From: Sandaracinus amylolyticus
GTDB taxonomy: Bacteria > Myxococcota_A > Polyangia > Polyangiales > Sandaracinaceae
DNA: 64,000 nucleotides
Assembly (NCBI RefSeq): GCF_021631985.1
Contig: NZ_CP070225.1
Coordinates: forward strand, 2,604,001-2,668,000
Reading direction: 5' to 3'
The notes beneath the pieces are model-generated. The model made no database searches, was not told the DNA's origin, and worked only from the letters and a program-made list of their open reading frames with translations. This document shows, piece after piece, positions 39,269-46,798 of this stretch. Both the position numbers and the translations under genes were made by a program. Within the stretch, counting starts at the first letter, position 1. Each line of letters begins with the position of its first letter.

Positions 39269-40003
39269 GTGATCCGAGCCGTGGACGTCCACGTCGCGTT
39301 CCGCCAGCCGGTCCTGCGCGGCGTCTCGCTCGAGGTCCCCGAGGGCTGCATCTACGCGCTGATCGGGCCGGGCGCGGCGGGCAAGAGCGTGCTGCTCAAG
39401 ACGCTCGCCGGGCTGATCCGACCCTCGCAGGGACGCGTCGAGCTGCTCGGTCGCGCGCTCGGCGAGCTCGACGAGGCGGGGCTCATGGAGGTGCGCCGCG
39501 ACGTCGGGATGCTCTTCCAGAACTACGCGCTCTTCGACTTCATGACGGTCGGCGAGAACATCGCGTTCCCGCTGCGTCGATTGTTCTCCCTGGGAGAACG
39601 AGAGATCCAGGAGCGAGTCGCCGAGCGGCTCGCGCGCATGTCGCTCCCCGGCTTCGAGTCGCGTCTTCCGGCAGGGCTCAGCGGCGGTCAGAAGAAGCGC
39701 GTCGGCGTGGCGCGCGCGACGGTGTCGCGGCCGCGCGTGCTGCTCTACGACGAGCCGACGGCGGGGCTCGATCCCGTCACGAGCCAGAAGATCTACGACC
39801 TCATCCGCGAGGAACAGCGCACGCACGGCACGACGAACGTCGTGATCTCGAGCGACGTGCGCGGCCTGCTCACGATCGCGGATCGCGTCGGGATGCTGCA
39901 CGGAGGCAAGCTGATCTTCGAGGGCACGCGCGACGAGGCGCTCGCGTCGGACGTGCCGGAAGTGCGGCAATTCGTGCACGGTCTGCCCGACGGCCCGCTC
40001 TGA
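39269..40003 (+). CDS. MCE-transporter ATPase 1, lacking the H-loop histidine
   Basis: 244 residues from GTG 39269, an MlaF-type ABC ATPase. Walker A is GPGAAGKS (33-40, one Gly of the loop changed to Ala). The Q-loop is FQNYALFDFMT. The signature is the consensus LSGGQKKR (137-144). Walker B is VLLYDEPTAGLDP with Glu162. The switch position reads VVISSDVRG, Ser195 in place of the usual His. The FMTVGENIAFPLR and IADRVGML segments mark the MlaF/Mkl subgroup. With ATPase 2 (42883) it probably forms an asymmetric heterodimer. Confidence 0.85.
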   Translation: MIRAVDVHVAFRQPVLRGVSLEVPEGCIYALIGPGAAGKSVLLKTLAGLIRPSQGRVELLGRALGELDEAGLMEVRRDVGMLFQNYALFDFMTVGENIAFPLRRLFSLGEREIQERVAERLARMSLPGFESRLPAGLSGGQKKRVGVARATVSRPRVLLYDEPTAGLDPVTSQKIYDLIREEQRTHGTTNVVISSDVRGLLTIADRVGMLHGGKLIFEGTRDEALASDVPEVRQFVHGLPDGPL

Positions 40004-40041
40004 CGAGTGTTCCTCGCGCTGCCGCATCGCAGACTGAGCGA

Positions 40042-40650
40042 ATGGACGCGTGGATCGCGACGCGCGAGCTGCCGGACGCGGCATGGATCGCGCTCGCGCT
40101 CTGCTTCGTCGAGCTGCTCGCGCTGATGCTCCCGCAGCGCTGGCTCGCGCGCCTCGCGTTCCTTCCGCTCACGGCCGAGCGCGTGGTGCGCGTGCCCCCG
40201 GAGGTGCGCGTCGTCGACGTGCGCGCCGGATATCGCGGCGCGGCGGTGCGCGTGGTGCGAGGGCTGCCGGCGCGCATCGCGATCGCCGACACGGTGCTCG
40301 CGACGTCGACGACGCGTCGCGGTCGATCGTTCTGCTGGGGAGAACGACGGAGAGCGTGGCCGGTGCGCGTCGATCTGCGCTGGGAGGACGACGGAGTGCA
40401 CCTGCGCGCGCGGATGCTGCCGCTGCCGTTCGTGACCCCGATCGTGCTCGCGGTGTCGGTGGTCGACGTGACGCTGCGGGCGCCGTCGGCGCTGCCGACG
40501 ATCGGGCTCCTGGCGATCGCGCTGATGATCGTGGGCTGGCTCGCGCAGCGCGGCGAGGTTCGACCGACCGCGCTCGAGCGCGCCTACGACGCCGTCGAGC
40601 GCGCGCTGACGCGGCCCGCGGTGCATGGCGTGTCATCCTCCGCGCGATGA
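40042..40650 (+). CDS. Small membrane protein of the MCE locus, paralogue 1
   Basis: 202 residues. An N-terminal membrane helix (AWIALALCFVELLALML) precedes PQRWLARLAFLPL. A soluble beta-rich middle follows, then a second hydrophobic pair (TPIVLAVSVVDVTL, GLLAIALMIVGWLA) and a helix LERAYDAVERAL. The next gene has the same plan (PQWLARLAFL, two late helices, IERAFDAIEETL), so the two are paralogues. They are not known Mla components. ATGA overlap with paralogue 2. Confidence 0.6.
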   Translation: MDAWIATRELPDAAWIALALCFVELLALMLPQRWLARLAFLPLTAERVVRVPPEVRVVDVRAGYRGAAVRVVRGLPARIAIADTVLATSTTRRGRSFCWGERRRAWPVRVDLRWEDDGVHLRARMLPLPFVTPIVLAVSVVDVTLRAPSALPTIGLLAIALMIVGWLAQRGEVRPTALERAYDAVERALTRPAVHGVSSSAR

Positions 40651-41198
40651 GCCCACTGCTGTACGCCGCAATCGCGCCGGTCTTGCTGGAGACTCTGATC
40701 TTCTTCGCGCGTCCGCAGTGGCTCGCGCGGCTCGCGTTCCTGCGCTTGGGGCCGGAGCGGCGGATCACGCTCGCGCATGCTCCCAAGCACGACGCGCCCG
40801 AGGGGTATCGCTTCGGGCGCGAGATCGAGCCCGCGCTTCCTGCGTTCCCCGAGCGCGTCGATCTCGACGACGCCGTGCTGATGTCGAGCGGCGACGGACG
40901 CTCGTTCGCGCTTCGCACCGCGTACGGCTTCTACCGGGGCGACCAGTGGATCGTGCGGATCGATCTGGAGCGGGCAGGGCGCGAGATCGTGCTCCGCGCG
41001 AGCCAGGGCTTCGTGCCGATCACGATGCCGATATTCTTCTTCGCGGTGATCCACGAGCGCCCGCTGATCACGATCGGCGGCATCGGGGTCGTCGTCGCGC
41101 TGATGGTCGCCGCGCAGCTCTTCTTCCGACGCGCGGCGCGGGAGGCCGCAATCGAGCGCGCCTTCGATGCGATCGAGGAGACGCTCCGACTCGGCTGA
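40647..41198 (+). CDS. Small membrane protein of the MCE locus, paralogue 2
   Basis: 183 residues, shares its layout with the gene just upstream: N-terminal helix, RPQWLARLAFLRLGPERRITL, a soluble beta middle with YGFYRGDQWIVRIDL, a helix pair (ITMPIFFFAVI, LITIGGIGVVVALMVAAQLFF) and a terminal amphipathic helix. The position between ATPase and permease genes argues for a subunit or assembly factor of the transporter. No named family is recognised. Confidence 0.6.
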   Translation: MSPLLYAAIAPVLLETLIFFARPQWLARLAFLRLGPERRITLAHAPKHDAPEGYRFGREIEPALPAFPERVDLDDAVLMSSGDGRSFALRTAYGFYRGDQWIVRIDLERAGREIVLRASQGFVPITMPIFFFAVIHERPLITIGGIGVVVALMVAAQLFFRRAAREAAIERAFDAIEETLRLG

Positions 41199-41218
41199 GC
41201 GCGTTATGCTCGCGCCGC

Positions 41219-42028
41219 GTGAGCGCGGGTGAGGACGAGCAGCGGGAGGAGCCCTTCTACCTGGGCGTGCCCACGCGCATCGGCGCGTCGCTCTTGCACC
41301 TCTCGGGCGAGCTCGGCGGGATGATCGTGCTCGCGGCGCGCCTCCTGCGTCGCCTCGTGCCGCCGCGCGTCGATCGCGACGAGCTCGTGAAGAACCTGCA
41401 CAAGACCGGGGTGCGCTCGGTCGGCATCGTGTCGGTCACCGCGATCTTCGTCGGCGCGATCATGGTCATCCAGGCCGCGCCCCTCGTGATGCGCTTCAAC
41501 GCGAAGGAGATCGTCGGCTGGGGCGCGGGCTTCGCGACGCTGCGCGAGGTCGGTCCGCTGCTGATCGCGCTCATGTTCAGTGGGCGCGTCGGCGCGAACA
41601 ACACCGCCGAGCTCGGGACCATGGTGGTGACCGATCAGATCGACGCGCTGCGCGCGCTCGCGATCGATCCGCTCGCGTACCTGATCCTGCCCCGCGTGAT
41701 CTCGATGGTGGTCATGCTCTTCCTGCTCACGATCGTCGGCGACGCGGTCGCGATCGTCGGCGCGATCGGCGCGGCGAAGGTGCTGCTCGACGTCGATCCG
41801 CGCTCGTTCATCAGCTCGCTCACGGTGCTGCTCGACGAGTGGGATCTCGCGACCGGTCTCATCAAGAGCGTCGCGTTCGGCGTGATGATCGCGCTCACGT
41901 CGTGCCACTTCGGCCTCTCGGTGAAGGGCGGCGCGCCGGGCGTCGGTCGCGCGGTGAACGCCGCGGTCGTCGCTGCGGCGAGCGGCATCTTCGTGCTCGA
42001 CTACTTCTCGACGTACCTCCTCGGATGA
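41219..42028 (+). CDS. MlaE-family permease 1
   Basis: 269 residues from GTG 41219. The MlaE core is clear: VGIVSVTAIFVGAIMVIQAAPLVM, AGFATLREVGPLLIALMFSGRVGANNTAELGTMVVTDQIDALRAL, PRVISMVVMLFLL and an SVAFGVMIALTSCHFGLSVKGGAPGVGRAVNAAVV ending. It has about five to six membrane helices. It would form half of an inner-membrane lipid channel. Sequence identity to permease 2 is low, so the pair is heteromeric and does not look like a recent duplication. Confidence 0.88.
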   Translation: MSAGEDEQREEPFYLGVPTRIGASLLHLSGELGGMIVLAARLLRRLVPPRVDRDELVKNLHKTGVRSVGIVSVTAIFVGAIMVIQAAPLVMRFNAKEIVGWGAGFATLREVGPLLIALMFSGRVGANNTAELGTMVVTDQIDALRALAIDPLAYLILPRVISMVVMLFLLTIVGDAVAIVGAIGAAKVLLDVDPRSFISSLTVLLDEWDLATGLIKSVAFGVMIALTSCHFGLSVKGGAPGVGRAVNAAVVAAASGIFVLDYFSTYLLG

Positions 42029-42101
42029 GCAGCGTGTCCAACATCGGCTCGCCGACTCCGGGTCCTCGCGTCCGCACGCTCCCGTGCGAGCACTCCAGCC
42101 G

Positions 42102-42881
42102 ATGAGCGCGCTCGAGACGATGGGCGCTCCGGTGCTGCACCTCGTGCGCGAGATCCGCGATCTCTTCGCGATGCTCGCGCGCACCGTCGTGCTCTCGATC
42201 CGCGGTCGTCGCGACCGGCGCACGATCGTCGAGCAGGCCTATCAGATGGGCAATCGCTCGGTGTTCTTCGTGAGCGTCACGATGGGCTTCATCGGCACCA
42301 TCATGGTGTTCCAGGCAGGCCTGCAGGCGCTCAAGATCGTGCCCGAGCTCAGCATGCTGGGCGCGACGTTCGCCGAGCTGCTGGTGCGCGATCTCGCCGC
42401 GTCGATCGGCGCGATGATGCTCGCGACGCGCGTGGGCGCCGGCATCGCGGCGGAGATCGGATCGATGGTGGTGACCGAGCAGGTCGACGCGATGCGCATG
42501 TGCGCGGCGGACCCCATCGAGTACCTCGTGGTGCCGCGCTTCCTCGCGTCGGTGCTGATGACGTTCTGCCTGCTGATCTGGGCGGCGGTCGTCGCGTTCG
42601 GCGCGGGCATGGTCACCGCGAACGTGGTGTTCGAGGTCAACTACGCGACGTTCGCGAACTTCTCGATGGTCGACGCCGGCGACGTGATCGTGGGGCTCAC
42701 GAAGATGCTCGCGTACGGCGCCGCGATCCCGATCGTCTCGGCGCGCTGCGGGCTCACGACGTTCGGCGGCTCGGAGGGCGTGGGCTGGGCGACGACGAAC
42801 GCGGTCGTGCAGAGCTCGCTCGCGGTCATCGTGCTCAACTTCGTGATCAGCAGCGTGGGCTTCCTGCTCTTCCCGGGCTGA
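42102..42881 (+). CDS. MlaE-family permease 2
   Basis: 259 residues; ATG 42102 is preferred over GTG 42084. Core: [81 protein letters not shown] and [33 protein letters not shown]. In permease 1 the first core motif reads ATLREVGPLL where this one has [10 protein letters not shown]. It ends one base before the GTG of ATPase 2, so both belong to one operon. Confidence 0.88.
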
Positions 42882-42882
42882 C

Positions 42883-43629
42883 GTGCCGATCCAGTTCAAG
42901 CACCTGCGCAAGGCGTTCGGTCCGAAGGTCGTGCTCGACGACGTGTCGATCGACGTGAACGACGGAGAGTGCTTCTTCGTCATCGGCGGATCGGGCGTCG
43001 GCAAGAGCGTGCTCATCAAGCACCTGATCGGCCTCTTGCGCCCGGATTCCGGGGAGATCTGGCTCGACGGACAAGAGGTCTCGCAACTCTCCGAGACCGA
43101 CTTCTATCCGGTGCGCAAGCGCTGCGCGATGGTCTTCCAGAGCTCGACGCTCTTCGACTCGATGACGTGCGAGGAGAACGTCGCGCTCCCGCTGCGCATG
43201 CACCGCGGGCTCTCGATGAAGGACGCGCGCGTCGAGGCGCGACGAAGGCTCGAGCAGGTGCACATGCAGGCGTTCGGGGATCGTTATCCCGCGGAGCTCG
43301 GCGACGGCATGCGCAAGCGCGTCGCGATCGCGCGCGCGCTGACGCTCGAGCCGCGCTACGTGCTCTTCGACGAGCCCACGACGTCGCTCGATCCGGTGTC
43401 GGCGCGGCGCGTCGATCAGATGATCCGCGAGCTCTGCGATCGGCTCGGGGTGACGTCGATCGTCGTCTCCCACGATCTCACGTCCATCTTCACGATCGCC
43501 GACCGAATCGCGATGCTGTACAAGGGTCGCGTTCGCGTGGTGGGGACGCCCGAAGAGCTCCGGCGCACCGAGGATCCCGTGGTGCGTCAGTTCATCGAAG
43601 GTCGTTCCGAGGGGCCGTACGAGACATGA
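42883..43629 (+). CDS. MCE-transporter ATPase 2 with non-consensus signature
   Basis: 248 residues from GTG 42883, MlaF-type. Walker A is GGSGVGKS. The Q-loop is [11 protein letters not shown]. The signature reads LGDGMRKR (139-146) in place of LSGG. Walker B is [13 protein letters not shown], and the H-loop is intact (VVSHDLTS, His197). The C-terminal [13 protein letters not shown] tail is MlaF-like and matches VRQFVHGLPDGP in ATPase 1. Its defect (signature) complements that of ATPase 1 (missing H-loop His). ATGA overlap with mlaD. Confidence 0.9.
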
Positions 43630-44639
43630 AGCTCTCGCTCGAAGCGCGTGTCGGCCTGCTGGTGTTCGTCGCGCTGCTGTTGCTCGGTGGCTTCGTGTTC
43701 CTGCTCGGCGGGATCGACTTCCGCGACGGCTTCACGATCTACGCGGACTTCGACAATCCAGGCGCGGTGCAGGCAGGCGCGCCGGTGCGCGTCGGCGGCG
43801 TGCGCGTCGGGAGCGTCGAAGAGGTGCGCTACATGGGCGGCCGGCTCGACCCCGAGACCGGTCGGCGTCCGCTTGTGCGCCTGCGCCTCGAGATCGATCG
43901 CGACGTGCGCGAGACGATCCACGACGACGCGCTGCTCTACGTGACCTCGCAGGGCGTGCTGGGCGAGCAGTTCATCGCGATCGATCCCGGCACCGCGGAG
44001 CGCCCGGCGATCGCGGAGGGCGCGATCCTCGACGGAGTCGATCCGCCGCGCCTCGATCTCGCGCTCGCGCTCGGATACGAGCTGCTCGAGGCGGTCGTCG
44101 ACGGACTGCGCACGAATCGCGAGGAGCTCGGCTCGCTGCTCGACGACGTCGTCGCGCTCATCCGCGCGGTGCGCGAGCTGCTCGATCAGAACCGCGATCG
44201 CGTCGCGCACATCCTCGAGAACGTCGACACGGTCGCGAGCGAGGGCGTGGAGCTGCTGCGCGGCGCTCGCCGCGAGTACGTGGAGGGCCCGCGCCCGCAG
44301 CGCATGCTCGCGCGGCTCGATCGGCTGACCGCGACGCTCGATCGCGAGACCGGTCCGCTGGTGACCGACGTGCGCGAGGTCGCGACCAGCGCGCGCGAGA
44401 CGCTCGCTGCGATCGGCCCCGAGGAGCGCGAGGATCTGCGCGAGACGATCCACGCCGCGGCGCGTGTCGCCGCCACTGCGGAGCGCACCGCCGCCGACGC
44501 CGAGCGCATCGTCGCGCACGTGCGTGGCGGCGAGGGCACGGTCGGCGCGCTGCTGATGGACGAGGAGATCTACGACGATCTCCAGGAGCTCATCCGCGAC
44601 CTCAAGCACAACCCGTGGAAGTTCTTCTGGCGCGAGTAG
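43626..44639 (+). CDS. MlaD/MCE-domain substrate-binding protein
   Basis: 337 residues. An N-terminal membrane helix ([19 protein letters not shown], 9-27) precedes the MCE domain (about 37-118, with [25 protein letters not shown] and [17 protein letters not shown]). A long helical region of about 190 residues ([25 protein letters not shown]...[12 protein letters not shown]) could build an extended needle or coiled-coil tunnel across the periplasm. It anchors in the inner membrane and passes lipid between membranes. It is the last gene of the MCE cluster. Confidence 0.92.
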
Positions 44640-45653: not shown

Positions 45654-45991
45654 GCGACGAGCCTACGCCGCACGTCCGAACGATCCAAGCGAGGCACCCA
45701 AGGTCGGGCCGAAGGGTCGTGTCCATGACGGCGCGACCGGTACTGGCATGCGTGCCGGCGCCCGTGTGCCCCGGCGTGCGCAAACGCCGCGACGAAGCGG
45801 AAATCACAAGGAAACCAAGCGGCCGACGGCGTTGACACTCACAATTCCACCCTGCTAGATTCGCGGGCGATATCGTCGAACGCCGCGATCTCGTCGGACG
45901 AGAGCGCGCGACGAGATCTCCTCGACCTGACCCAGTGGATGTACGGCCCGCCCGAGAGCGGCCCGAGAAAGCGCGAGAGCGGGAGAACCCG
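45654..45991. other. Intergenic region with promoter for the coiled-coil membrane protein
   Basis: 338 bp between the divergent genes. It contains a strong promoter (45832-45861) and about 120 nt of leader before ATG 45992. No RNA gene or dyad was recognised in the leader. A stretch of relatively lower GC (45780-45865) surrounds the promoter. Confidence 0.55.
45832..45861 (+). promoter_or_regulatory. Sigma-70 promoter with extended -10
   Basis: TTGACA, 18-nt spacer, TGC-TAGATT. Both boxes are near consensus, and the TG before the -10 adds an extended -10 element. Transcription should start near 45868. Confidence 0.78.
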
Positions 45992-46798
45992 ATGGCGGAG
46001 CAGAAGGAGTCTTCGGTCCTCTTCAACCTCCGGGAGCTGATGAACCTGGAGGAGCAGCGCATCAGCGACGAGGAAGCGACGAAGCGCAAGGCCGAAGAGG
46101 ACGCGCGGCTCGCCCGGGAGGCCGAGGAGCGCAAGAAGCGCGAGGAGCTCGCGGCGAAGCAGCGCGCCGAGGAAGAGGCGCGGCTCGCGGCGGAGCGCGC
46201 GGCGCGCGAAGAGGAAGAGCGCAAGGTCCGCGCGAAGGAAGAGGGCGAGCTGCGCATCCGCCTCGAGGCGGAGCAGAAGGCGCGCATCGCCGAGCAGGAG
46301 CGCCTCCTCGCCCACGAGCAGGAGGTCAAGCGCATCGAGGCGACGCGTCGCAAGGGCGTGCACCCGGGCGTGTTCGCGGCGGTCGGTCTGCTCGTCGTCG
46401 GCATCGCCGCCGGCGTGTGGTTCGGCGTGGTCTCGCCGCAGCTCGAGGCGCAGCGGATCGCGCAGGAGGCCGCGCAGCGCGAGGCCGAGCGTCGCGCCGC
46501 CGAGGCGCAGCAGCTCCAGGCGCAGGCCGACGAAGCGCGTCGGGCCGCCGAGGAAGCGCAGCGTCGCGTGGCCGAGATGGAGTCGCGCGCGGCGCAGCTC
46601 GAGGCGTCGGGCGACACCCAGGCCGCGGAGCAGGTGCGCGCCGAAGCGCGTCGTGTTCGCACGACCTCGCCGCGTCGCGCGGCCGCGTCGAGCGGCTCGT
46701 CGTCGGGCAGCCGCAGCGGCAGCAGCACCGGCTCGTCGGGCGGTCGCCGCGGCGGCGGGGACGACGACGATCCGTTGGCCGGCCTCGAAGGCCTCTGA
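45992..46798 (+). CDS. Coiled-coil single-pass membrane protein
   Basis: 268 residues from ATG 45992. An N-terminal segment (SSVLFNLRELMNLEEQRI) precedes about 95 residues of Glu/Arg/Lys coiled coil, one membrane helix (VFAAVGLLVVGIAAGVWFGVV, about 130-150), and a second coiled coil (AQRIAQEAAQREAERRAAEAQQ...). It ends with a Ser/Gly/Arg tail and an acidic DDDD. The shape recalls TonB/TolA-like or structural membrane proteins. It has a strong promoter and a terminator of its own, so it is probably abundant. Confidence 0.7.
   Translation: MAEQKESSVLFNLRELMNLEEQRISDEEATKRKAEEDARLAREAEERKKREELAAKQRAEEEARLAAERAAREEEERKVRAKEEGELRIRLEAEQKARIAEQERLLAHEQEVKRIEATRRKGVHPGVFAAVGLLVVGIAAGVWFGVVSPQLEAQRIAQEAAQREAERRAAEAQQLQAQADEARRAAEEAQRRVAEMESRAAQLEASGDTQAAEQVRAEARRVRTTSPRRAAASSGSSSGSRSGSSTGSSGGRRGGGDDDDPLAGLEGL

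Follow-up and report, generated by a model that had tools for sequence, protein, structure and literature searches.

Among MCE lipid transporters, the solved Mla and Mce1 complexes each contain a single ATPase sequence; the original prediction for the locus described here had said that known Mla, Tgd, and Mce4 systems use identical ATPases. The MlaFEDB complexes of Escherichia coli (6xbd), Pseudomonas aeruginosa (7ch8), and Acinetobacter baumannii (7d06), which are the closest solved relatives of this locus in permease, MCE protein, and ATPases, are built from one MlaF and one MlaE sequence and have consensus ATP sites. In this study, we analysed a window of 64,000 nucleotides (positions 2,604,001 to 2,668,000 of contig NZ_CP070225.1) from the 10.96 Mb genome of Sandaracinus amylolyticus, whose nearest named relatives are Sandaracinaceae/Polyangiales. 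Seven plus-strand genes fill window positions 39269–44639 in the order ATP1, M1, M2, E1, E2, ATP2, and D. In contrast to MlaFEDB, the locus encodes two distinct ATPases (ATP1 and ATP2) and two distinct permeases (E1 and E2), and it very probably specifies an MCE transporter with an asymmetric ATP1–ATP2–E1–E2 core under a ring of D, having one consensus and one degenerate ATP site. The parts of this system, the lesions in its ATP sites, the partition of these lesions between the subunits, their conservation, and the co-occurrence of the two ATPases can all be read from the sequences.

ATP1 (39269–40003, +; 244 amino acids, GTG start; PF00005 [ABC_tran], 3.1e-31) and ATP2 (42883–43629, +; 248 amino acids; PF00005, 1.3e-31) are both MlaF-like ATPases of the ATP-binding cassette (ABC) type. 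The original prediction was that ATP1 joins a consensus signature to a Ser at the H-loop position, that ATP2 joins an H-loop His to a non-consensus signature, and that the pair would therefore have one good and one defective site. Both motif readings were confirmed in the sequence and are invariant in the orthologue alignments. ATP1 has the consensus signature LSGGQ (residues 137–141; 39677–39691, +) and, in VISSD, Ser195 in place of the H-loop His (39851–39853, +), with S194-S195-D196 invariant. ATP2 has the signature LGDGM (residues 139–143; 43297–43311, +), with G140-D141-G142 invariant, and an intact H-loop His197 in VVSHD (43471–43473, +); its Walker A, GGSGVGKS (42985–43008, +), is canonical both in the sequence and in the ATP2 alignment, and its Walker B Glu is intact. 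A third lesion, which the prediction had not mentioned, lies in the Walker A of ATP1 (GPGAAGKS; 39365–39388, +), where Ala36 replaces Gly at the fourth position. Ala36 is invariant in the ATP1 alignment, and at the equivalent position 24 of 25 ordinary MlaF/MceG sequences have the canonical Gly. The Walker A Lys and Q-loop Gln of ATP1 are retained. In ABC transporters each ATP site is composite, with Walker A, Walker B, and H-loop contributed by one nucleotide-binding domain (NBD) and the signature by the other (PMC7756269). Given this build, all three lesions share one site of an ATP1–ATP2 pair and the other has consensus motifs throughout, so that the predicted layout stands, with Ala36 added to it.

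Searches for both ATPases covered genomes of the phylum Myxococcota. Among 38 relatives, 20 have orthologues of both ATPases, 18 have neither, and none carries just one. Phylum-wide, the 284 genomes comprised 114 with both, four with ATP1 alone, six with ATP2 alone, and 160 with neither. The single cases are mostly truncated or incomplete: in G109, G231, G188, G162, G211, and G170 the operons are cut at contig ends, and G133, G206, and G213 are genomes of 81–86% completeness in which ATP2-D forms a separate locus; G046 was rejected as an ordinary MlaF operon. No complete genome clearly having one ATPase alone was found among the 284, and both ATPases are retained in the genome even where the operon is divided over contigs. 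Of the 85 loci that have both ATPases together, 65 show exactly the gene order ATP1-E1-E2-ATP2-D, and an operon usually has a single MCE gene and a single pair of E1 and E2. When named genomes were scanned, ATP1 was detected in Sorangium, Polyangium, Minicystis, and Labilithrix, as well as in many metagenome-assembled genomes of Polyangiaceae.

The two ATPases are separate genes that are unlinked in some genomes, and the mycobacterial ATPase MceG is likewise encoded outside the mce operons; both facts would suit two homodimeric transporters, or two homodimeric ATPases that alternate on the permeases according to conditions. We nevertheless regard this arrangement as improbable. Judged by their motifs, ATP1:ATP1 would lack the His or the Glu and ATP2:ATP2 a usable signature, leaving either homodimer with two defective sites and no consensus one, which arises only in the heterodimer. 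The usual single MCE gene and single E1/E2 pair, together with the lack of any complete genome clearly reduced to one ATPase, argue in the same direction.

For the motif counts, duplicates were removed and MacB-like ABC proteins and the ordinary MlaF L290 were excluded. Each of the 131 distinct ATP1 sequences has at least one lesion in its own site, be it in Walker A, the catalytic Glu, or the H-loop; SGG is present in the signature of 130 of them. The 96 distinct ATP2 sequences, on the other hand, have all kept Walker A, Glu, and His (0/96 with a lesion in any of these) and have all lost SGG, the variants being GDG (84), SDG (4), GPS (4), GPG (3), and GPP (1). Among 25 ordinary MlaF/MceG sequences, four of them from solved structures, none has lost the H-loop His and 19 are fully canonical. 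As the lesions recur in 131 ATP1 and 96 ATP2 sequences, against no loss of the His in ordinary MlaF/MceG, they are not due to chance. Their types agree with those of known degenerate sites, in which the NBD2 signature is always changed, the replacement of the Walker B Glu by Asp comes next, and the H-loop is often altered (PMC7756269). In the window's class the ATP1 lesion is His to Ser plus Gly to Ala; elsewhere in the phylum it is mostly catalytic Glu to Asp with the His kept, and a few sequences combine both kinds. The expectation that the missing His and LGDGM would co-vary is consequently borne out within the window's class but mostly not outside it, and from the alignments the conserved trait is a degenerate ATP1 site together with a lost ATP2 signature, not the exact pair of residues. 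On the ATP1 tree, the fewest changes required are three for Glu, three for His, and two for Walker A. The ATP1 clade has a support of 97 (quick method), and ATP1, ATP2, E1, and E2 form separate paralogous clades that, save for a few stray rows, also stand apart from ordinary MlaF/MlaE.

The location of the catalytic lesions in ATP1 might point to a regulatory pseudo-ATPase that is bound elsewhere while ATP2 alone drives the pump. To this, too, we assign little probability: SGG has a role only in trans, when two NBDs dimerize, yet it is ATP1 that has kept it and ATP2 that has lost it, and the Lys and Gln retained by ATP1 also speak against such a reading. Degenerate motifs alone often mean decay, but drift in a decaying duplicate system is very improbable here, given that the motifs are invariant among orthologues of 55–97% identity, that both genes and their order are conserved throughout the phylum, and that the lesions are strictly partitioned between the two ATPases.

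The explanation we favour is an MCE lipid transporter of the inner membrane, in which the ABC part would be a heterotetramer, with one copy each of ATP1, ATP2, E1, and E2, lying below the D ring. The NBDs would pair as an ATP1–ATP2 heterodimer with two unlike composite sites. ATP would be hydrolysed at the consensus site, formed by the Walker A, Glu, and H-loop His of ATP2 and the LSGGQ of ATP1, while at the degenerate site, formed by the Walker A and H-loop of ATP1 and the LGDGM of ATP2, it would be bound and hydrolysed poorly or never, holding the NBDs together. Like TAP, CFTR, or TM287/288, the pump would thus hydrolyse one ATP in each cycle, moving lipid between the inner membrane and the conduit formed by D. 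Heterodimerization, the single hydrolysis, and the clamp role are proposed by analogy with established ABC biochemistry; lipid as the cargo is suggested by family membership only, and the 1:1:1:1:6 stoichiometry and the direction of transport are likewise put forward as presumptive.

Several points weigh against this explanation. The physical contact between ATP1 and ATP2 is something we infer from their motifs. The association of the two genes over the 284 genomes (p = 4e-66) overstates the certainty, because related genomes are not independent. Many of the 20 relatives have a dispersed system, with ATP1 away from E1-E2-ATP2-D or ATP2-D away from ATP1-E1-E2, and the separation of ATP1 or ATP2-D from the permeases in several genomes allows, without favouring, multiple assemblies. 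Finally, as the ATP1 of the window's class retains its catalytic Glu, the degenerate site in this class may still hydrolyse ATP slowly.

We incline, by a modest degree, to a broader view, namely that the system is the first asymmetric-ATPase class of MCE transporter and that its dead site has been kept throughout the phylum, though the residue that kills it has been replaced, because the dead site itself is selected. As the residue change differs between lineages while the site remains degenerate, selection would seem to act on the dead site as a functional element. Such a site could serve, for example, as a permanent ATP clamp that would make one-hydrolysis, directional lipid transport through the MCE conduit possible. 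Since the same site is disabled through different residues in different lineages, these lineages offer a natural experiment on what a degenerate site is for. An MCE pump that is asymmetric throughout a phylum would bring the degenerate-site design to MCE lipid transporters and would provide a natural means of separating the binding of ATP from its hydrolysis during lipid transport, a process of which even the direction has been debated.

The gene content of the locus was as predicted (two MlaF-type ATPases, two MlaE-type permeases, one MlaD, and the paralogues M1 and M2), Pfam and pairwise comparison being in agreement. The closest solved relative of ATP1 is P. aeruginosa MlaF, and those of ATP2 are MlaF (7ch8; 5.6e-55) and MceG (8fed). 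E1 (41219–42028, +; PF02405, 1.6e-66), whose closest solved relatives are MlaE and YrbE, and E2 (42084–42881, +; PF02405, 9.1e-53) are MlaE-family permeases, each in a clade of its own (support 0.999 for E2); the conserved (D/E)Q-x-DA motif of the permease alignment is retained in both, as DQIDAL in E1 and EQVDAM in E2. D (43626–44639, +; PF02470, 5.4e-14) is the sole MCE protein, with MlaD and Mce1 proteins as closest solved relatives. An AlphaFold2 model gave it a transmembrane helix (residues 5–27), an MCE barrel (about 35–138), and then about 200 amino acids of predicted helix; the predicted local distance difference test score was mostly above 80 in the MCE part and mostly below 50 in the C-terminal part. 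The single MCE gene suggests that D forms a homohexamer. D is akin to the elongated MlaD and Mce proteins that have been proposed to act as a periplasmic conduit (PMC10665443; PMC9882608).

M1 (40042–40650, +) and M2 (40647–41198, +) are paralogous membrane proteins (33% identity, E 7e-11) with hydrophobic segments at both ends of each and no Pfam match above the cut-off. The original prediction had listed them with the transporter genes; as components of the transporter we rejected them. They are probably passengers, because they adjoin the MCE system only within the window's genus and because relatives occur in two genomes that lack the system (G008 and G002).

Some further genes lie near the system. 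Downstream of D in the window (45935–46798, +) is a conserved gene (MAEQKESSVLF…) that is also found in L067 and L080; the window copy has no Pfam match. In one phylum-level family (L207, L208, L219, and L256), a probably secreted protein of about 215–265 amino acids, for which the three copies tested gave no Pfam match, has its gene between E2 and ATP2; upstream of ATP1 lies a gene for a TPR protein whose start resembles that of a lipoprotein. Both are possible envelope partners of the transporter. In G014 (L086:1260-2201), E1 and E2 are separated by a nucleotide-sugar-epimerase-like gene, and in G016 (L067:7601-9631), an opposite-strand reading frame of 676 amino acids lies between ATP1 and E1. 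Elsewhere in the genome of the window (L097:6197-6904; G000:C1:1782196-1782885), there is a MlaF-like ATPase with a GGSATGKS Walker A, a DDP Walker B, and an intact LSGGM signature; having ATP1-like lesions, it could be one half of another asymmetric pair. Ordinary-looking MlaFs with LSSGM, LSAGM, or LSQGM signatures occur in relatives (L029, L032, L033, L056, and L059) and are possible partners for ATPases of this kind.

The locus has the parts of an MCE transporter of the MlaFEDB type, namely MlaE permeases, an anchored MCE-domain protein, and MlaF/MceG-type ATPases. What it lacks is the pair of identical ATPases with two consensus sites, a state that is found in the solved members but is not strictly defining. 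MlaFEDB also includes the STAS protein MlaB, whereas Pfam revealed neither a MlaB nor a MlaC partner among the seven genes of the locus, the search being confined to these genes and not extended to the rest of the genome. ATP1 and ATP2 stop about 6–8 amino acids past the QF..G motif and so do not have the C-terminal "handshake" of about 25 amino acids found in MlaF (PMC7367683). We rejected this short C-terminus as a special feature, two ordinary MlaFs of the phylum being equally short.

The mycobacterial Mce1 complex (MceG2-YrbE1A-YrbE1B-Mce1A-F; 8fed) resembles the present system in having two different permeases and MCE proteins with a long helical needle; however, it has an MceG homodimer encoded elsewhere and a ring of six different MCE proteins (PMC9882608), whereas here the ATPases are unlike and there is one MCE gene. 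Two different MlaE permeases with one MlaF were also observed in the operons L303 and L218, a further heteromeric permease layout outside actinobacteria. The MlaEFD set of Veillonella parvula is a minimal one, and its long helical MlaD is proposed to bridge the envelope, but the complex is 2:2:6 with one MlaF and one MlaE, unlike the two-ATPase locus described here (PMC10665443). The phylogeny in that work omitted MlaF for annotation uncertainty, and its text does not mention Myxococcota (PMC10665443). In the open-access literature, with subscription papers and preprints largely uncovered, we found no MCE system with two different or degenerate ATPases and no description of such a transporter in Myxococcota. 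The claim of a new MCE architecture accordingly holds for the asymmetry of the ATPases but not for the two different permeases, for which Mce1 is a precedent.

Degenerate ATP sites are frequent among the ABC exporters of eukaryotes and in some of the bacterial ones, and we know of no heterodimeric degenerate-site ABC transporter that is of the MlaE type. The present system shares with such transporters two distinct NBDs that are kept together, an altered signature in one, and a lesion of another motif in the other. The logic and the kinds of lesion within one composite site are the same (PMC7756269), although those transporters are of other types and have no MCE proteins. All parts of the system come from known families; what is new is that an MCE transporter has an asymmetric pair of ATPases.

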